Source: Hallerella porci (GTDB lineage: Bacteria; Fibrobacterota; Fibrobacteria; Fibrobacterales; Fibrobacteraceae). From it: a DNA stretch of 45,640 bases. Position numbers and translations under genes: made by a program. Shown piece by piece: positions 22,544-44,964 of the stretch. The notes under the pieces were generated by a model. The model saw only the letters and a program-made list of their open reading frames with translations, did no database searches and had not been told where the DNA came from. Location: NCBI RefSeq assembly GCF_003148885.1, contig NZ_QGHD01000020.1, positions 1-45,640 on the forward strand, in the 5' to 3' direction. Position 1 is the stretch's first letter; each line of letters opens with the position of its first letter.

Positions 22544-23404
22544 GTGTTTACTCGATTCGCTCCTAGCCCCACAGGATTTTTACATCGCGGGCATGTTCTC
22601 TCCGCCCTTTATGTCACGGCAATCGCCCAAAAATTCGGCGCAAAAATTCGTTTGCGCATCGAAGATCACGACCAAAGTCGCGCGCGCCCCGCTTACATTG
22701 ACGGCATCCGCGAAGATTTAGAATGGCTCGGATTTTCTTGGGATGCAGAATCCATTCAAAGCGAAAATCAAGAACGCTACATTCATTTTTTAAAACTTTT
22801 ACAAGAAAAAAATTTGGTTTACGCCTGCGATTGTTCCCGCAAATTTACCTTCGAAACCAATCCGCAAAACGCCGACGGAGAAATTATTTATCAAGGTCAT
22901 TGCCGCAACCGAAAACTTCCTTTTTCCAAAGAAAATTCTGTGCGTTTCAAAACTCCCGACGAAATAATCAAATGGGATGATTTACGCCTCGGGCATTTTT
23001 TAGAAAATCCCAAGCAGCAATGCGGTGATTTTGCCCTCAAAGATAGACTCGGACAATGGACTTATCAATTCGCAGTCGTCGCTGATGATTTTGAAGAAGA
23101 CATCGATCTCGTCGTCCGCGGCGAAGATTTACGCGTTTCCACCGCCCGCCAAATCGCCCTTTCCCAAGCGCTCGGCCGAAAAACTCCCCCTTTATTTTTT
23201 CATCATCCGCTCATTTCCGACCCAACCGGAAAAAAACTTTCCAAGCGCGACCACGTAGCAAGCATACGCGGCGAACGCGACGCCGGCATTTCCCCCGAAA
23301 CCATCCTCGGCGAAATCTGCACCGCCGCTGACATTCTTCCCCAATTTCAACCGCTTTCGTTCGAAGAAGCCGCAAAGAAATTAGGAATCGTTTTAAATGA
23401 GTAA
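22544..23404 (+). CDS. gluQ: Glutamyl-Q tRNA(Asp) synthetase
   Basis: A 286-residue truncated glutamyl-tRNA synthetase homologue. FTRFAPSPTGFLHRGHVLSA carries the HIGH-type HRGH, and SDPTGKKLSKRDH the KMSKS-type loop. The zinc site CDC...YQGHC (Cys-x-Cys and Tyr-x3-Cys) is the hallmark of GluQRS, and there is no anticodon-binding domain. It attaches glutamate to the queuosine of tRNA(Asp). The start is GTG 22544, where family similarity begins, with no clear Shine-Dalgarno sequence. Confidence 0.93.
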   Translation: MFTRFAPSPTGFLHRGHVLSALYVTAIAQKFGAKIRLRIEDHDQSRARPAYIDGIREDLEWLGFSWDAESIQSENQERYIHFLKLLQEKNLVYACDCSRKFTFETNPQNADGEIIYQGHCRNRKLPFSKENSVRFKTPDEIIKWDDLRLGHFLENPKQQCGDFALKDRLGQWTYQFAVVADDFEEDIDLVVRGEDLRVSTARQIALSQALGRKTPPLFFHHPLISDPTGKKLSKRDHVASIRGERDAGISPETILGEICTAADILPQFQPLSFEEAAKKLGIVLNE

Positions 23405-23714
23405 TTAGGAGTGAGGAGTGAAAAATTTGATCTTAGAAATTCTAAGCTCTAAAATCTAAGTTCTCATTTTCTCTCATGCAACGCTGCGGCAAGGCTTTTT
23501 AAATGAAAAATGAGATGATGGTGCGCCGGGGTTTTGAGAACTTAGAGCTGAGAACTTTGAACTTAGAAATTCTAAGATCTAAACTCTAAGCTCTAAGATC
23601 TTGCATTACCGCGCGGAGCACCTAAATTTTGAATTGTTAATTATGCATTGAATTGAATCCAAGCGAGTTTCTAAGCTTCCTTTTTTCGCGAATTTAACAT
23701 ATATTCCATACTAT
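23405..23714. repeat. Intergenic spacer with two copies of a CTTAGAAATTCTAAG-type repeat
   Basis: No gene is present. 23432-23464 is a short copy and 23528-23610 a long copy of an element built from variants of CTTAGA/TCTAAG, with the palindrome CTTAGAAATTCTAAG at its centre. The 49 bases 23528-23576 recur without a mismatch at 44561-44609, and the similarity continues into ATCTTGCATT and an AT-rich tail ending near TTGAATCCA. The element is too short to encode a protein and may be a MITE or an intergenic structural repeat. Confidence 0.85.
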
Positions 23715-26700
23715 ATGGCGGATGATCTGTATCACAAACTTTTAAATCTTCGAGACGCTTCCTTTGACTTAGACTTCAAAAGTCGGCTTTTGAATTTTGT
23801 GCCAAACGCAAAATTTCAAACCCCGCTTCTTTCGGAAGATGGAATTTCTTTTTTTGAACGATGGACGCGGAACCCGGTTGCGCTGCCTCTTTCAATGTTT
23901 GCGCCGACTAATGCGGCATTTTCGGAAAAAAATCAAAGCGACCTTTTCGCCGATTTCCGCTATGCGCTGCGCATTTTTGAAGAAGGCACGGGAGAACAAA
24001 ACGCATTCCTCGCCGTCGGTTTTCTGAAATCGCAAGGAATGGCGCCGCTGCTTTTATTCCCGATTCAAATCGACGTGAAAACTCTCACCGTTTCCCTCGC
24101 CGAGAGCCTCCCGATTGAAAATGTTCCACTGCGGCTCAAAAATAAAAACGTCGTTCAGCTGCCCGCAGCCAAAGAATTTATCCGCGAAAAAAATTTTGAC
24201 ATCCGCGAATACTTTGCAGCCGTCGCCCAAGCGATTAGAACGATGCCCGATTGGCGCAGCACTTCGCGCGGAATGTTCCTCGGATTCTACGATGCCGCAG
24301 GACTTTATGCCTTTAGCGATGCCGATGATTCGGCTTGGAATCACAGCGAAGAAAACAGCAAACTTCTTTCGCAGTTACTTTCTCCCGAAGGATTTCACGT
24401 GGTCGAATCCGATCTCGACAGCCGTAATCCCGATGAAATTTTTGATCCGGTGTCGCATTATTTTGTGCACACTCTCGATTCCGAAGCGAATACTTCCCTT
24501 CTCGAATCGCTTTCGCCCGAAAATTCTCTTTACGTTGTCGAAACGCCGCCGGGCTCTTCGCGCGAAGAATTTTTAGCCAATTTCATTGCCGAAAGCGTTT
24601 CCACCGGTAAAAAAGTTTTGCTGACTTACCGCAAAAAAATTTCGCTCGTCCGCTTTGAAAAATTGTGGAATCGCCAGCGGCCCGATTACAAAGATATCAC
24701 CTTAGAAAAATCCCGCGAAACTCTTTCTCAAACCCGAAACACATTAGTCGCTTACAATAACGCAGTCAATCACCCGATTCCTGTCGGAAATTGCACATTA
24801 TCCGAAGCGCTCACGATGCTTGCGCAAGCGGGAACGCACAAAAAAGTTTGGCCCGATTCGACATTTAACGGTTCCGAAAATTTAAGCCGCGAAGAATTTC
24901 ATTCAGCGCAAAGCAATCTGCAAGATTTACTCGAAATTTTAGAACGCGATGAAGCGAAGAAATCTTTGATCGCCTACAAAGGCGTTGCCCTAGATGCGAC
25001 AAATGAATTGCAACGCAAACGTCTCGCGTCAAAGCTCAAAAAAACAGTCGCGGAATTTTCCACCCTTTCTACTCTTGCCGATAGCGTCGCCAATGTTCTT
25101 TTCTTTAATCAAAGCATCGACATTCAAACTCTTTCGGATTTAGGAATAGCGATTTCTCCCGATTTCAATAGTGCTACGCCATCCTTTGACGGTTGGACTT
25201 TAGAATCCAAAGATTGGAGCACATTTAAAGATTCGTTGTTAGCGCTTCCAAATGCTGGCGCCACTTGGTCGGAATTTCGTCGCACCGGTTCTCCCATTTA
25301 CGTCGATGGCGCAATCAATATGCAGCTCGGCGCTGCCCGCGAAATTTTAAAAGAAAATCAAGATCGCACCTTCAAAGCTTTTTCGGAATACTATCATAAC
25401 GCGCGGAAAACTCTGCTCAAAACTTTGAAAGATCCGCGCCTAGGGAAAAAAGACGAAGACCTTTTAGCGCTGACCGATAAACTCATTCAGCTGCAAGATG
25501 CGAAAAAACTTTATACGAATACCTCGGCATTAGCGGGTCGCCTTTTGGGAAAAGATTGGCTATTTGAACACACCAACTGGATTGTGCTCGACGCCAAGCT
25601 CCGCTGGTTTTACAACTTCCGCAAAAAAGTGGAAAAATCCGAAAACGCTTCGCTTTCATTCGCTATCCTTTCCAAGTACAATCAAATCAAAGATCAAATC
25701 AGCGATGCCGCTGCTCTCCGCGAACTTTGCGAAAACGCCCGCACCGATTTTGAAGACCTTTGCCGCGAATTGGATTTTTCAAAAATTGCCGATTACAATA
25801 GCGTGACCGAGCAAGCTGAACTCGTCAAAAAATGGGAAGATGCTCTTCCACTTTTACCGATTTACACCCAAATTCAATCGAAGAGAAATGAGCTCAAAGC
25901 GCAAAATCTCGACGAACTTGAAAAAGCGATTATCGGTGATCACGCGGGCAAAGAATTTCTTTCCAGAGAATTTTCACGATTCTGGAGTTCAGATCAAATT
26001 CAGCGCGCCTGTAAAATTTTCCCCGAGCTCTTTTCGTCTACGCCGAAAGTGCACACGAAACGCGCCCGCGATTTCCGCGAAGCGACCGATGATTTGTGCA
26101 TGATGAATTTGCGTTTTGCCAAAGATGCGGTGCAAAAAAATCCGAAATTGCTCACAATTCTTCCCGCTGGGAAAGTGGCTGCGCAAATTGAAAAAACGGC
26201 GAAACTTTTTGATGTCGCAGTTATTCTCGACGCCGAATCCGTCCCGCCGATGCAAGCGATGCCTGCGATTCTTCGGGCAAAACGTGCGGTGCTTTTTGGC
26301 GATTCCAATTTACCGACGGCGCCATTCCCGAATATTTTTGGCCAAGAACGGAACGCCACATTTATCGCATCGCAATTCGAAAGTATTCTTTCTTATTCGC
26401 TGTATAAAGGCGCACCGCTTTCTTTCCTCGCATTAAATTGTCGGCATAAACATCCGATTTTAATCGAATTTGCCAATCAAAATTTCTACGGGCAAAAAAT
26501 CAAAAAATTGCCGCCGCCCAATTCCGAAATTCCTTCGGATTTGCAAATCATCGTCGAAAAAAATATTTCGCAGGCGATTGCCGATGCCGCAGCCAAACAT
26601 GTCGAACAGCATCCGATGCAATCTCTCGGCATTATCGTTTTTACCGAAGAGCGCCGCAAAAGCGTTTTCCAAGCGATTGAAAAGAAAGTTCACGAACATC

Positions 26701-27806
26701 CCGATTTAGGATTTTTCTTTTCGCCCAAAGATATTTTACGCGATCCGTATGTGAGTTTGCCCGAAGAAGCTTCCGGAAATTTCCGCGATGTTCTCTTCGT
26801 TTGTGCAGAACCCGCCGCCGCGATTGCGGGACAAGGAATGAATGCCAAATGCGTGAATGTTTGTGCAACGCATGCGCTTTCTTCGCTCCGAATTTTTGTG
26901 AATGACTTGCCCGAAAAAACGGTTTCGACGAATGCGGGAATTCGCGCATACTCCGAATTTTTACAGTTTGCGAAAAATTTCAAATCGGTGAGTCTTTTCA
27001 AAGCGAGTCCGCTGCTTTCTTCTTTTGAAGAACAAATTGTGCAAAATATCGGCAACGGAAAATGCCAACTAGAAAAGAATTGGAACTATAATGGCGCTGC
27101 CATTTTATTCGCCGTCCACGATGAAAATAATCCGGAACATTTTTTAATCGGCATTGAAAATGATTCGTCGAACGGATTTTTGCGGGAATCGGTCGAAGAC
27201 CGCTTGTATTTGCGACATAAAATTTTGGAGCAACTCGGTTGGAAAATTATTCCGCTTTGGTGCCCGAATTGGTTCCGCTCAACCGCCGACGAATGCGAAC
27301 ATATTCTGACGACGATTGCTGTGGAACAAAGTGTAGCGCCACCGCCTCGTGAGAAAAACGAAGAAGAGGAAGCTCCCGCCGAATTGCACGTGGAACCTTA
27401 TACCATCGTCAATCCGAAAATCGAAGGAACTGTGCACGATGTGCCCTTTCCCGATTTAGCGCCAAAACTTTTGATTTTGCAAATGAAATTTTTCATCGAT
27501 GCAGAATCCCCGCTGCACGAAAAAAGCCTCATTCGCCGCGTTTTGCATTTGCACGGTTTACACCGCGCAGGTCCCGCCGTCGTTCGCGCCATCAAGAATG
27601 CGATTACACAAGGACTTGTCCGCAAAGCGTTTATTAAAACCGGCTCCTTCTTCTATTCGGTAACGCCGAAGCCTATCGTTTTACGCGATCGTTCTGCGCT
27701 TCCGGAAGAAGAACGCAAGCTGATTTTCGTTTCGCCCGAAGAACGTGAACTTTTCCCAGCGGGTACCGATGAGCAAACGATAAAAGAAACTCTTGGTTTA
27801 ATTTAG
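23715..27806 (+). CDS. Giant DUF4011/DUF3320 SF1 helicase-nuclease homologue with eroded catalytic motifs
   Basis: A 1363-residue cytoplasmic protein. The N-terminus (KLLNLRDASFDLDFKSRLLN) matches the DUF4011 start. Helicase elements are in the right order but altered: ETPPGSSREEF at 278-284 in place of a Walker A PPGTGKS; VILDAESVPPMQAMPAILRA at 839-842 in place of DEAS; VNVCATHALSSLRIF at 1048-1055 in place of NVATTRARRRL. A Vsr-like MTES_1575 nuclease region follows (about 1113-1198) with HFLIGIENDSSNGF. The winged-helix DUF3320 lies at about 1249-1310. Relatives act in defence or DNA repair. This one is probably not an ATPase, yet the long frame is intact. It stands alone, with a strong terminator. 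Confidence 0.8.
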   Translation: MADDLYHKLLNLRDASFDLDFKSRLLNFVPNAKFQTPLLSEDGISFFERWTRNPVALPLSMFAPTNAAFSEKNQSDLFADFRYALRIFEEGTGEQNAFLAVGFLKSQGMAPLLLFPIQIDVKTLTVSLAESLPIENVPLRLKNKNVVQLPAAKEFIREKNFDIREYFAAVAQAIRTMPDWRSTSRGMFLGFYDAAGLYAFSDADDSAWNHSEENSKLLSQLLSPEGFHVVESDLDSRNPDEIFDPVSHYFVHTLDSEANTSLLESLSPENSLYVVETPPGSSREEFLANFIAESVSTGKKVLLTYRKKISLVRFEKLWNRQRPDYKDITLEKSRETLSQTRNTLVAYNNAVNHPIPVGNCTLSEALTMLAQAGTHKKVWPDSTFNGSENLSREEFHSAQSNLQDLLEILERDEAKKSLIAYKGVALDATNELQRKRLASKLKKTVAEFSTLSTLADSVANVLFFNQSIDIQTLSDLGIAISPDFNSATPSFDGWTLESKDWSTFKDSLLALPNAGATWSEFRRTGSPIYVDGAINMQLGAAREILKENQDRTFKAFSEYYHNARKTLLKTLKDPRLGKKDEDLLALTDKLIQLQDAKKLYTNTSALAGRLLGKDWLFEHTNWIVLDAKLRWFYNFRKKVEKSENASLSFAILSKYNQIKDQISDAAALRELCENARTDFEDLCRELDFSKIADYNSVTEQAELVKKWEDALPLLPIYTQIQSKRNELKAQNLDELEKAIIGDHAGKEFLSREFSRFWSSDQIQRACKIFPELFSSTPKVHTKRARDFREATDDLCMMNLRFAKDAVQKNPKLLTILPAGKVAAQIEKTAKLFDVAVILDAESVPPMQAMPAILRAKRAVLFGDSNLPTAPFPNIFGQERNATFIASQFESILSYSLYKGAPLSFLALNCRHKHPILIEFANQNFYGQKIKKLPPPNSEIPSDLQIIVEKNISQAIADAAAKHVEQHPMQSLGIIVFTEERRKSVFQAIEKKVHEHPDLGFFFSPKDILRDPYVSLPEEASGNFRDVLFVCAEPAAAIAGQGMNAKCVNVCATHALSSLRIFVNDLPEKTVSTNAGIRAYSEFLQFAKNFKSVSLFKASPLLSSFEEQIVQNIGNGKCQLEKNWNYNGAAILFAVHDENNPEHFLIGIENDSSNGFLRESVEDRLYLRHKILEQLGWKIIPLWCPNWFRSTADECEHILTTIAVEQSVAPPPREKNEEEEAPAELHVEPYTIVNPKIEGTVHDVPFPDLAPKLLILQMKFFIDAESPLHEKSLIRRVLHLHGLHRAGPAVVRAIKNAITQGLVRKAFIKTGSFFYSVTPKPIVLRDRSALPEEERKLIFVSPEERELFPAGTDEQTIKETLGLI

Positions 27807-27830
27807 CGCAGCTTCGCTGCGAAAGAGAAA

Positions 27831-27859
27831 ATCGCGCGCCAAAGGCGCGCGATTTTTTT
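27831..27859 (+). terminator. Rho-independent terminator of the giant helicase-like gene
   Basis: ATCGCGCGCC (27831-27840) pairs perfectly with GGCGCGCGAT (27844-27853) around AAA and runs into seven T. Confidence 0.9.
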
Positions 27860-32512: not shown

Positions 32513-35500
32513 CTAACTGATTGTGAAAATTTGCCGCAATTCATCGTCGGAAAGTTTTGTAATCCAACTTTCGCCGGTGGCGACCGTCATCTCGGAAATT
32601 TTCTTTTTGCTTTCGATAATCGCGTTGATTTTTTCTTCGAAAGTGTCTTTTGTGATTAAACGGTGCACGACGACGCGGCGATTTTGTCCAATTCGATAGG
32701 CGCGGTCCGTCGCCTGCGCTTCGACAGCGGGATTCCACCACAAATCGTAATGAATCACTTGTGAAGCACACGTTAAATTGAGACCGGTTCCGCCCGCTTT
32801 GAGCGATAAAATTAAAATGCGTTTTTCGGGCAACGATTCAAATTCGGCGATGACTTTTTCGCGGGCAGAAACCGAAAGAGCGCCGTGATAAAAAAGCGCT
32901 TCGGTTTTTAATTTTTTCTTCAAGACTTTTTGCAAAATTTCGCCCATTTCTGTAAATTGCGTAAACACGAGAACTTTTTCATCGGTATCTAAAATAGCTT
33001 CGACGATATCCAAGAATAATTCCATTTTTCCCGAAAGCGAAGTGTCGAAATTGCCGTCTTTTAAATATTGCGCGGGATGATTGCAAATCTGTTTTAAGGC
33101 GATGATGAGTTTTAAAACTTCTGCGCTGCGCTCAAATTTTTCTTCGGGATTTTCTAGTTCAAAATTTTCAATATTCGTCATGTAACTGTTAAATGTCGCC
33201 TGATATAATTTTTCTTGTTCTGGAGAAAGTGTTGCCCATTCATCTTGTTCCAATTTTTCGGGCAAGTCGGCGATAATGTTTTTGTCGGTTTTAACGCGGC
33301 GAAGTAAAAAAGGCGCAGTGATTTTTTTGAACAGTTCAGCGCGGTGTTTGTTGTTGCGTTCTTGAATCGGAAATTCAAATTCGGTATGAAAACTTTTTGC
33401 GCTACCCAAAAAGCCGCGATTGCAAAAATCCATGATGCTCCAAAATTCGAGCAGACGATTTTCGACGGGAGTTCCGCTCATCGCAATTTTCACGCGAGCC
33501 GATAGAGCGCGCACCGCACGACTTTGCGATGTTCCCGCATTCTTGATATTTTGCGCTTCATCGATGACAGCGAGCTGCCAACGTATTTTCGAAAGTTCTT
33601 CTTTATCCGAACGGAAAACGCCGTAAGTGGTGATGATGACATCAACCGTAGAAAGTTCTAATTGACGATTCGCACCGTGGTAAATTTTCACTCGAATTTG
33701 CGGGGCAAATTTTGCCGTTTCTCGTTTCCAGTTTTGCAAAAGTCCTGTGGGAACGATGACGAGTGCTTTCATCTCGTCAAAGGCGCCATCGTTTTTCATT
33801 TGCTGCAAAAGCGTAATCACTTGCAGCGTTTTTCCAAGTCCCATGTCGTCGGCGATGACACTTCCGAATCCGAGTTTTGCATTGCCGAGCATCCACGCAA
33901 ATCCGCGTTTTTGATACGGGCGAAGTTCTGCTTGAATTTGCGGCGGCACCGGAACGTCGCATTCGTTTTCCGCTTTTAATTTGTGAATTTCTTCGAGGGC
34001 TTCGGGCGCAATGTCAACGGTTAATCCTTCAAATTCTCCGGCGAGGGCAATTTGCAAAACTTTAAACGCCGGCATTTTAAATCGGTCGCGCAAACCATCT
34101 TGGATTCGCTTTGCATCGCTTTCGAGGACATAAAAATATTGGCCATCGAGATACAGCAAATTTTTGGATTCTTTATACATTTCCAAAAATTCTTTGCCGC
34201 CGATAATTTTATCGCCGACTTGAAGAATCCAATTCATCTGCAGCAAATTTTCGAGGCGAGCAAATCCTGCTTGCATTTTTTCTTCGGAGCGCACGATCTG
34301 CGGCTGCGGAATTCCACGAATGACATGTTCAATTCCCGCGGGCAAATTCATCGCCACGCCAAGCGCACGAAATAGCGGCACCGATTCATTTAAAAAGCGG
34401 ATGAGAGAACTTTCATAAAGATGAATGTTGTCCGTTGCTTTTCCCGAAACATACGCATCGTAATCGGGGAGATATTGCTGCAGCGGCTGCGTGCTGAGCA
34501 AAACTTGATTGCGTTTTTCACTCGGAAAATTTCGCGTCCACAATTTTGAATACGGATTCACTTCGCCGGTTTCTTGTTCGATAAAATCCAAATCGACGTC
34601 GACTTTTCCAAAGCCCGCATCGACACCGTTAATCACCGGCAAATAAGAGGCGTTTGAAATTTCATAACCCGCGAGCCATTTTTCTAATTCGCCATCGCGC
34701 AAAATTCCATTTGAATCCAAAGTGATGCCGCGGAAAAATGCATACAAACGATCATCGCAAAATCGCTTATCTTTTTCGACGCGCATATACGACGAAAGAA
34801 TTGCGATGACGAGCATTTCCGCCGAATTTTTCGTCATTTCCTTTGGCGATTCGAGCATGCTGCGGACAAATTTTGCGGGCAATTTTTTTTGCAACTGCGC
34901 AATCGCATTTTTTACTTCGGGAATTGACTGAAGCGGCAACCAAAAAATCTGCGCCATTTTCGAATCGACAAGAAAAAGCTTCGGATAAACGGCGCCGCGT
35001 TTTAAAATTTCTAAAGCTGTTTTTCGTGCACAATCGAGGAGCCGTGCGGATGCATCCGCCTTTTGCATTCCCGTCGGACCTTCAACAGAAAGCGCGTCCA
35101 ACACATACGAAAGCGGAACATTTCCAAATGTCCACTGTGAACTTCCGAGATAGCGCACTTGCCCCGGGCGCGTTAAATCGACAGATTCATCGGGATAGCG
35201 TTCAAAATTTTGCGAAAAAATTTTCGTTAATGTTTCGCGATAATTAGTAACAAAGTCAGCGTTAAAGCGGGAATTTGGCGCAACCGCATAAAGAATTGCC
35301 GAACGCACATCGACGATATTCGCCGGTTCGTATTCGGAGTTTTCATTCCCCGTCGTCGGTTCAAACGGCACCTTGATAAATTTGTCGGCGAAGGTGGGAA
35401 GCTTTGCTGATTTTACAACCAACGGTAAATCTTCTTGCCATTTTGCTTGGCCGCACTGTTCAGCGATAAGCGATAAATCGAGTCCGCGTTGCGAAAAGAG

Positions 35501-35935
35501 AAGCTGCGGATCGCGATCTATTTTTTTTCCTAAGCCGTAAATGGCTGCGTAAATATGCGTGCACAAGCCTTGCATGCCGCAAGTGCACATCGCCGAAAAT
35601 TTCACGCCGGGACCTGGGAAAAGGCGCACGTCCGATTGTTCAATCAGCGGTAAAATTTCGGAAGTTAAAATTTTCGAAGAAAAATTTCCAATAAACTGCG
35701 GATTCTTTTTGAAAATTTCCAGAATTTTATTTTCTTCGGTTTCTGTAAATCGCGATAAACGAAAGATGACTTTTTGCGTTTTCCAAGAACCATCGACGAC
35801 TTTAACTTCACCAGAACGACCCGATAATTTAATTTCCGTTGCCGTCGCTTCGGAATGCGAATACGAAGAATAAAACTTCTTCATCGAAGTTCGCCATTTA
35901 TCGCCCCAAAGTGTTGGTTTTGGATCTACTGCCAT
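32513..35935 (-). CDS. SNF2/RapA-like helicase with SWIM zinc finger
   Basis: A 1140-residue SWI2/SNF2 ATPase. The N-terminal part has a SWIM-type zinc site, CTCGMQGLCTHIYAAIYGLG, around residue 118. After a poorly conserved middle the helicase core begins at about 660: Walker A ADDMGLGKTLQVITLL (about 698), DEAQ box VIDEAQNIKNAG (about 790), SGTPVENRLLEFWSIMDF, and in the second lobe VLVFTQFTEMGE, LSLKAGGTGLNLTCASQVIH and RAYRIGQNRRVVVHRLI. All catalytic motifs look intact. Such proteins move along double-stranded DNA and remodel bound complexes. ATG 35935 is the likely start. It stands alone behind terminators. Confidence 0.93.
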   Translation of the reverse strand: MAVDPKPTLWGDKWRTSMKKFYSSYSHSEATATEIKLSGRSGEVKVVDGSWKTQKVIFRLSRFTETEENKILEIFKKNPQFIGNFSSKILTSEILPLIEQSDVRLFPGPGVKFSAMCTCGMQGLCTHIYAAIYGLGKKIDRDPQLLFSQRGLDLSLIAEQCGQAKWQEDLPLVVKSAKLPTFADKFIKVPFEPTTGNENSEYEPANIVDVRSAILYAVAPNSRFNADFVTNYRETLTKIFSQNFERYPDESVDLTRPGQVRYLGSSQWTFGNVPLSYVLDALSVEGPTGMQKADASARLLDCARKTALEILKRGAVYPKLFLVDSKMAQIFWLPLQSIPEVKNAIAQLQKKLPAKFVRSMLESPKEMTKNSAEMLVIAILSSYMRVEKDKRFCDDRLYAFFRGITLDSNGILRDGELEKWLAGYEISNASYLPVINGVDAGFGKVDVDLDFIEQETGEVNPYSKLWTRNFPSEKRNQVLLSTQPLQQYLPDYDAYVSGKATDNIHLYESSLIRFLNESVPLFRALGVAMNLPAGIEHVIRGIPQPQIVRSEEKMQAGFARLENLLQMNWILQVGDKIIGGKEFLEMYKESKNLLYLDGQYFYVLESDAKRIQDGLRDRFKMPAFKVLQIALAGEFEGLTVDIAPEALEEIHKLKAENECDVPVPPQIQAELRPYQKRGFAWMLGNAKLGFGSVIADDMGLGKTLQVITLLQQMKNDGAFDEMKALVIVPTGLLQNWKRETAKFAPQIRVKIYHGANRQLELSTVDVIITTYGVFRSDKEELSKIRWQLAVIDEAQNIKNAGTSQSRAVRALSARVKIAMSGTPVENRLLEFWSIMDFCNRGFLGSAKSFHTEFEFPIQERNNKHRAELFKKITAPFLLRRVKTDKNIIADLPEKLEQDEWATLSPEQEKLYQATFNSYMTNIENFELENPEEKFERSAEVLKLIIALKQICNHPAQYLKDGNFDTSLSGKMELFLDIVEAILDTDEKVLVFTQFTEMGEILQKVLKKKLKTEALFYHGALSVSAREKVIAEFESLPEKRILILSLKAGGTGLNLTCASQVIHYDLWWNPAVEAQATDRAYRIGQNRRVVVHRLITKDTFEEKINAIIESKKKISEMTVATGESWITKLSDDELRQIFTIS

Positions 35936-35950
35936 CGCCCCAAAAATAGA

Positions 35951-36010
35951 AAAGAAGTGCGTTTGAAACACACTTCTTTTTCATGAAAAATCCCCGCACT
36001 AAGACGGGGA
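35951..36010 (-). terminator. Tandem terminators of the RND operon
   Basis: On the minus strand, just after the RND permease stop, a stem TCCCCG/CGGGGA (36010-36005 with 35996-35991) runs into five T. A second, longer stem (AAGAAGTGTGTTTC type, 35979-35951) ends in CTTTTCTATTTTT. Together they insulate the SNF2 gene from the efflux operon. Confidence 0.8.
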
Positions 36011-44243: not shown

Positions 44244-44964
44244 CGAAACTCAAAATAACAAAAAATGAGAACTTAGAGCTGAGAAACTCTAAGCTCTAAA
44301 ATCTAAGTTCTAAGATCTTGCATTACCGCGTAGTTTCAATGCACAATTAACAATTATAGCAAGGTGAGAATCGCAAAAATGAGCTTGCTCATTTTTATGA
44401 CCGAGCCGCAGCGTAATGGGCGTAAGCCAATGCACAATGTACAATTGAGAATTAGGCGCGCCTTTGGCGCGCTTGTTATAAATAGCAGCGAAGCTGCCTA
44501 ACTTTTATCAATTATGCATTATTAGCCAATGCACAGGAAATAATGGCGGCGAAGCCGTGCGGGGTTTTGAGAACTTAGAGCTGAGAACTTTGAACTTAGA
44601 AATTCTAAGCTCTAAAATCTAAGTTCTAAGATCTTGCATTTCCCCGCGCGAAGCGCCTAACTCTCTAATTATGCATTGTTAATTATCCATTATAAATTGA
44701 ATCCACGCGGGCTTTCCCTTCGGACGCAAACCTCATTTTCGTGCAATGCTGCATGGACACTTCAAATGCCTTTTGAACTCTTCGTACAATGCTGCATAGA
44801 CACTTCAAATGGCTTTTGAATACTTCCTGCACCGCTGCATAAGCGATGCAATCAAAATTTTACAGTATTTCTGTAACTGAATCATAAATTTTGACCTATT
44901 TTACCCTTGTGTGGTCATTTTGGGAATAAATGTTTCAATTCACAAACACTCGATGGAGGTTCAC
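44244..44964. repeat. Repeat-rich intergenic spacer
   Basis: No gene is visible before the DUF6261 start. From 44267-44330 and 44561-44640 there are two more copies of the CTTAGA/TCTAAG element also found at 23432-23610. In between lie hairpins (44375-44396, AAAAATGAGC/GCTCATTTTT; 44456-44472, GCGCGCC/GGCGCGC) and AT-rich runs of the AATGCACAAT/AATTAACAATT kind. At 44740-44825 a 43-base unit beginning CGTGCAATGCTGCATGGACA occurs twice in tandem, followed by a third partial unit. Confidence 0.85.
44740..44825. repeat. Tandem 43-bp repeat, two copies plus a partial third
   Basis: Unit 1 (44740-44782) and unit 2 (44783-44825) share GCTGCAT-GACACTTCAAATG and CTTTTGAA with only a few differences. 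A decayed third unit (CTGCACCGCTGCATAAGCGA) follows from 44826. Confidence 0.85.

Follow-up and report, generated by a model that had tools for sequence, protein, structure and literature searches.

Introduction

The described families closest to the gene studied here are all represented by phage-defense models: PDC-S37 of PADLOC, and the NCBIfam families Hhe, a DUF4011 anti-phage protein, and ProA. DUF4011 proteins have been found on plasmids and at a defense hotspot of Pseudomonas, and the DUF4011 gene PA14_RS11765, which forms the right flank of the hotspot cDHS1, is reported to be core in every P. aeruginosa isolate (PMC10250203). The PDC-S37 relatives read in this study are 1534 to 1982 amino acids (aa) long, patchy or mobile in distribution, and equipped with intact Walker A and B motifs, motif VI, and nuclease Asp. 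The gene described here lies at positions 23715–27806 on the forward strand of a 45,640-nucleotide stretch of Hallerella porci DNA (contig NZ_QGHD01000020.1, assembly GCF_003148885.1), referred to below as the window. Its product, a DUF4011/superfamily 1B (SF1B) helicase/Vsr-like nuclease/DUF3320 protein that appears catalytically dead, shares full-length homology and domain order with PDC-S37, whereas the group of orthologues to which it belongs lacks those residues, is about 1363 aa long, and is core. The explanation favored here, to which a probability of roughly 0.6 is assigned, is that a defense-type helicase-nuclease was converted once, in the ancestor of these genera, to a non-enzymatic core scaffold, probably one that binds nucleic acid.

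Loss of catalytic residues

Catalytic motifs were compared over 56 aligned full-length orthologues, to which all fractions of 56 below refer. Intact relatives carry GPPGTGKS, VIFDEASQ, GDxxQMPP, VQGDERD, VTRAK or VSRSR, and IDLAV/IDMGI...ECDG...YH, and the matching motifs in the window protein are TPPGSSRE, VILDAES, GDSNLPTA, ASGNFRD, CATHAL, and ILFAV...ENDSSNGF. The Walker B, motif VI, and nuclease residues are kept in the intact relatives from Fibrobacteraceae, Vibrio, Azospirillaceae, Rhizobium, Paraburkholderia, and Cyanobacterium and from Acinetobacter plasmids; the Walker B Asp, the catalytic Glu, the motif VI Arg, and the nuclease Asp are each intact in none of the 56 orthologues.

The Walker A remnant PPGSSRE (residues 278–284; 24546–24566, +) corresponds to x-P-G-[TS]-x-K-x in the orthologues, none of which has a complete G....GK[ST]. 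Its Lys is kept in 50/56 and is gone in the window protein, where it is Arg, in the nearest relative, and in four others, and the position of the Mg2+-ligand Ser/Thr is variable. At motif Ia (residues 300–314; 24612–24656, +), the Glu306 of intact relatives is Arg or Lys in 53 orthologues, and the segment containing the motif Ib region (LHS, invariant in intact relatives) has been deleted from the dead group. For Walker B (VILDAES, residues 836–842; 26220–26240, +), the register was set by ungapped flanks with the same spacing from FD to GD, which places VIFDEASQ opposite VILDAES; the Asp is thus replaced by Leu838 (Leu in 55 orthologues, Thr in one) and the catalytic Glu by Asp839 (56/56). 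The window protein has also lost the Gln of motif III and the WHYRS context of motif IV. In motif V (residues 1013–1026; 26751–26792, +), VQGDERD has become ASGNFRD, in which Gln and Glu are lost and the Arg1024-Asp1025 pair is invariant, and in motif VI (VNVCATHALSSLRIF, residues 1047–1061; 26853–26897, +), VTRAK has become ATHAL, the Arg being Leu in 47 and His in 9 orthologues.

The nuclease residues have changed as well. In the MTES_1575 Vsr-like fold (residues 1104–1201; 27024–27317, +), the strand IDMGI is ILFAV, with Leu1131 at the position of the catalytic Asp, and the His is lost. Across the orthologues this position is occupied by Gly (44), Gln (5), Ser (3), and others, and never by Asp. 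A second acidic pair, E1148-x-D1150, is kept together with D1162 and R1167; Asp839, E1148, D1150, and R1167 are each conserved in 56/56. Judged from these residues, both the ATPase and the nuclease activity of the group are very probably gone.

These data bear on an initial annotation of the window, which described a 1363-residue helicase-nuclease homologue with an intact frame, a strong terminator, and all catalytic motifs rewritten. The frame and the homology are borne out by the open reading frame (ORF) and the family comparisons given below, and the terminator, of the intrinsic type, is present as a 16-pair stem followed by T7 at 27825–27859 (+). The rewriting of the motifs holds for the window protein and calls for one correction in its group, in which the Walker A Lys is mostly retained. 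The Walker B box, which had been read as DAES, is indeed altered, but the Walker B Asp position is Leu838 and falls outside DAES, in which Asp839 occupies the position of the catalytic Glu. No second Walker A (G....GK[ST]), DEAS, or [ST]R[AS][RK] motif was found elsewhere in the chain of the window protein, and the inactivation stands, on firmer ground than first described.

Family membership and domain organization

The ORF starts with ATG, encodes 1363 aa, and is free of stops. PDC-S37 is its best family match, in three stretches (E 6.7e-134, 446 bits). In Pfam, MTES_1575 matches residues 1104–1201 (E 4e-13) and DUF3320 matches residues 1261–1289 (E 4e-6), the DUF4011 match at residues 68–126 is weak and below the cut-off (E 0.007), RAP (RNA-binding, with a Vsr-like fold) gives a sub-threshold match at residues 1139–1181, and neither the AAA/helicase models nor the RecC models PF04257 and PF17946 score on the protein. 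Solved structures searched by sequence gave no match. In a profile–profile comparison (hhalign), a profile of the 56 orthologues aligned over its full length with the intact Fibrobacteraceae relatives (1314 columns, P 100, E 5e-85), so that homology to the DUF4011/PDC-S37 family is found across the DUF4011, helicase, MTES_1575, and DUF3320 regions. The matches to Hhe (NF042953; E 3e-41, 140.7 bits against a cut-off of 2000) and ProA (NF058533; E 1e-89, 301.2 bits against a cut-off of 1500) are partial, and these scores under the curated cut-offs do not place the protein in either equivalog. On sequence grounds, the protein is a member by descent of the DUF4011/PDC-S37 superfamily and does not count as an active enzyme of the PDC-S37, Hhe, or ProA type.

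The DUF4011-like N-terminal region (residues 1–265; 23715–24509, +), for which Pfam gives only the weak match, is clear in the profile–profile alignment and is modeled with a predicted local distance difference test score (pLDDT) mostly between 70 and 94. Between the two RecA-like halves lies a mostly helical insert (residues 326–790; 24690–26084, +) with near-invariant Trp494, Trp501, Trp518, Trp615, and Trp622. The DUF3320-like region and C-terminal tail (residues 1261–1363; 27495–27803, +) are among the most conserved parts of the chain.

AlphaFold models built on orthologues gave a pLDDT of 86.9 and a predicted template modeling (TM) score of 0.74 for residues 1–1200, and values of 82.3 and 0.65, respectively, for residues 780–1363. 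The Foldseek matches of these models are Upf1-like SF1B helicases, namely senataxin, Aquarius, IGHMBP2, Dna2, and Upf1, which points to an SF1B fold; the best E value was 5e-7 with the model of the C-terminal part and 5e-10 with that of residues 1–1200, and TM-scores were modest, at about 0.2–0.4. In our reading, the helical insert has no counterpart in the matched helicases. The predicted fold is intact in the dead group.

Distribution, selection, and origin

Orthologues of about 1320–1400 aa, one per genome, are found in 93 of the 111 genomes of the family and in 49 of its 56 good-quality genomes; a 94th hit (G005) was left out of this count, being a 104-residue piece of something else. In the largest genus, the gene is present in 78 of 80 genomes, and the two genomes without it are 65% and 71% complete. 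It occurs in every genome of the window's genus (g1) and of genera g5, g7, g9, and g10, and in two of the three g11 genomes. Beyond the family, the dead group was not found within the phylum by protein search or with a profile built from 45 rows over the last 584 residues; one scan of genome contigs for relatives of the group gave a same-genus record only, other phyla not having been searched genome-wide. Two copies are exceptions and represent assembly errors or real losses: one has an internal TAG (G031, contig C128) and the other a split N-terminus (G032, contig C9, locus L055).

The length of the orthologues is nearly fixed, and all 56 full-length aligned rows are stop-free. The ratio of nonsynonymous to synonymous substitution rates (dN/dS) in close pairs ranged from 0.026 to 0.158 (YN00) and from 0.028 to 0.157 (NG86) where computable, and the regional medians were 0.047–0.085, with the lowest value (0.047) in residues 1201–1363. 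Purifying selection is strong along the whole chain. The replacement residues are themselves conserved (Leu838 and Asp839, as given above). Positions 282 and 284 of the P-loop, in contrast, are now free to vary and change rapidly, at the 82nd percentile of entropy, and this combination suggests repurposing rather than decay.

A quick, unrooted maximum-likelihood tree placed 24 dead sequences on one side of a branch with a support of 100 and nine intact sequences on the other. Intact full-length PDC-S37/Hhe-like relatives are present in three Fibrobacteraceae genomes (G061, locus L049, 1734–6338; G063, L050, 2131–7998; G035, L051, 2008–7956), and that of G061, 1534 aa long, adjoins a homologue of the defense candidate PDC-S01. 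Since intact relatives occur in these genomes as well as in other bacteria, a one-time inactivation in the ancestor of the dead group's genera is the simplest reading of the sequences.

Genomic neighborhood

A gluQRS-type tRNA-synt_1c gene (22544–23404, +) lies directly upstream and is a conserved neighbor: the focal gene is found just downstream of it on the same strand in 33 of 36 loci when the window is counted, at a distance of −4 to 79 base pairs (bp) in 32 of the 35 loci outside the window. The gene and gluQRS are probably in one operon. The link is positional and its function unproven because of several exceptions, as the gene occurs without a close gluQRS in G103, the two are apart in G090, and gluQRS has no such gene beside it in G002, G108, and the g4 genomes. 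Only in the window, among the genomes examined, has the gap between the two genes been widened, from under 80 bp to 310 bp (23405–23714), by AT-rich repeats which recur at 44266–44640. The repeats, with units near TTAGAAATTCTAAG/GATCTAAACTCTAAGCTCT, have inverted-repeat arms, and identity between the copies at the two sites reaches 96%; the element resembles a mobile or palindromic repeat of small size, and its recurrence at 44266–44640 suggests that the insertion into the gap is probably recent.

Farther upstream are genes for an RNase T-type exonuclease and topoisomerase III, and downstream is a gene for a large PA14-like protein (fibro-slime-type by sequence). The locus is not a defense island. 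Elsewhere in the window, positions 32513–35971 (−) encode an SNF2 helicase of 1152 aa (SNF2-rel_dom, DUF3670), and the ZorD and DpdE defense models give high scores with its helicase half. The same genome also encodes a 1640-aa protein in which a sacsin domain is fused to an SF1 helicase (locus L097, 3653–8575, −), alone on a short contig (G000:C48), and this is possibly a defense protein.

Possible function and alternative explanations

The gene has been kept by nearly all members of the main genera even though the enzyme residues are gone, and its job is therefore probably binding or scaffolding. An ancestral DUF4011-type helicase-nuclease would have lost both motor and nuclease once, before the genera diverged, and the dead gene would then have stayed in the core genome in single copy, behind gluQRS and probably in the same operon. 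The protein would neither unwind nor cut. It would instead be a fixed scaffold of several domains, and three of its parts may hold nucleic acid and/or partner proteins: what was once the helicase cleft (which retains a P-G-x-x-K loop and has an Arg-Arg in motif Ia), the pseudo-Vsr domain, and the DUF3320 winged-helix region at the C-terminus. The fuller version of this explanation, in which a helicase-nuclease of a phage-defense family was disarmed once in an ancestor that Fibrobacter shares with its sister genera and became the core non-enzymatic scaffold of an undescribed nucleic-acid process, co-transcribed with gluQRS, stands at about even odds. Several observations weigh against the scaffold explanation. 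Deletion of the motif Ib region and a whole-protein isoelectric point of about 6 leave nucleic-acid binding unproven. The conserved Asp839, E1148, and D1150 and the frequent Walker A Lys may leave room for nucleotide or metal binding without turnover or for an unusual residual activity. Some members of the family do without the gene, which is absent from genera g2, g3, g4, and g8 and from a g11 genome of 94% completeness, and it has diverged faster than its neighbors (between-genus identity of about 33% compared with about 55% for gluQRS).

If the residues just named did bind ATP or metal, at Lys283, Asp839, E1148, and D1150, the protein could work as a conformational switch or a slow nuclease, and the invariance of R1167 would also fit; this is an improbable reading, as the Walker B Asp, the Walker A Ser/Thr, the motif VI Arg, and the nuclease Asp are missing in effectively all members, the window protein has Arg at the Lys position, and the motif Ib region is deleted. 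A role in defense, as a phage sensor, a decoy for anti-defense factors, or the recognition half of a defense complex, comes out slightly ahead of it and is still unlikely. All homologous family models and the plasmid and hotspot occurrences of DUF4011 proteins speak for such a role, but the gene is near-universal in its genera, single-copy, vertically inherited, syntenic, and low in dN/dS, and it stands by gluQRS rather than in a defense island. Viral contigs of IMG/VR searched with the C-terminal profile contained no relative, phages yielded one weak match, and the P. aeruginosa DUF4011 gene is likewise a core flank of its hotspot rather than a variable system (PMC10250203). A general nucleic-acid housekeeping process is likelier than phage defense. 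Service in tRNA modification or translation together with GluQRS is suggested by the shared strand, the short distance in 32 loci, and the sub-threshold RAP match; it seems as doubtful as retained activity, since an operon neighborhood alone is weak evidence and the exceptions listed above separate the two genes.

Other explanations have very little room. Inactivated helicase folds are found in RecC and AddB too (PMC4824097), which raised the idea that the protein stands in for a missing RecC/AddB subunit of a break-resection nuclease; replacement of RecC is excluded by the complete recC-recB-recD cluster of the window's genome (Exonuc_V_gamma 7e-36, RecC_C 5e-11), and the idea is very improbable. 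Equally so is a pair made of a dead and an active paralogue: three genomes of the family do carry an intact relative as well, but the other 90 have no full-length one by protein search, and for the window's genome the pair is refuted, the same search having found none and the sole AAA_12 helicase being the sacsin-type protein. Least probable of all is a pseudogene or neutral remnant, for which the lost motifs and the interrupted copies in G031 and G032 could be cited; it is refuted by 56 open full-length orthologues of nearly fixed length and a dN/dS of about 0.03–0.16.

Collectively, these results agree with the proposal of the initial annotation that selection has kept the gene for a non-enzymatic role, given orthologues in 93 genomes rather than one, dN/dS values far below 1, stop-free rows, and confidently predicted folds. 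Of the roles it suggested, a partner of an active paralogue finds no counterpart in the window's genome, and a decoy or sensor for anti-defense factors, or an undescribed defense system, fits poorly with a vertical, single-copy core gene beside gluQRS. A DNA-bound scaffold is compatible with the data, as binding of RNA or protein would be.

Comparison with known systems

Recruitment of defense genes to household roles is often suspected, but there are few clear cases in which a whole group has lost its chemistry and is tightly conserved. The present gene, 4 kb long, is retained by almost every member of the main genera in a family of gut fiber degraders, and the intact relatives make the group a ready-made side-by-side test. 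A search of one paper library found three papers that mention DUF4011, no work joining Fibrobacter with anti-phage functions and none on bacterial core pseudoenzyme helicases. The similarity to PDC-S37 also carries a warning, as defense-gene scanners flag this core gene as a defense candidate.

Compared to active PDC-S37 enzymes, the focal group shows neither a complete Walker A, the DE of Walker B, the motif VI Arg, and the nuclease Asp nor a patchy, mobile, or defense-island distribution. Hhe and ProA belong to the same superfamily and match in part, but with scores too low for membership. The likeness drawn to PA14_RS11765 of P. aeruginosa is that of a DUF4011 gene with core status in a species. 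Upf1, IGHMBP2, Dna2, and senataxin resemble the predicted core fold; however, they are active ATPases. In the AddB and RecC subunits, inactivated SF1 helicase domains serve as Chi readers, so that a motif-less helicase fold is kept as a non-motor part, as appears to be the case here. These subunits are UvrD-like SF1 proteins (PMC4824097), whereas the focal protein is predicted to be an Upf1-like SF1B protein, and the host has its own RecC. The proposed scaffold may be likened, in kind and not by descent, to the AddB and RecC helicase domains, which gave up motor activity and came to read DNA.

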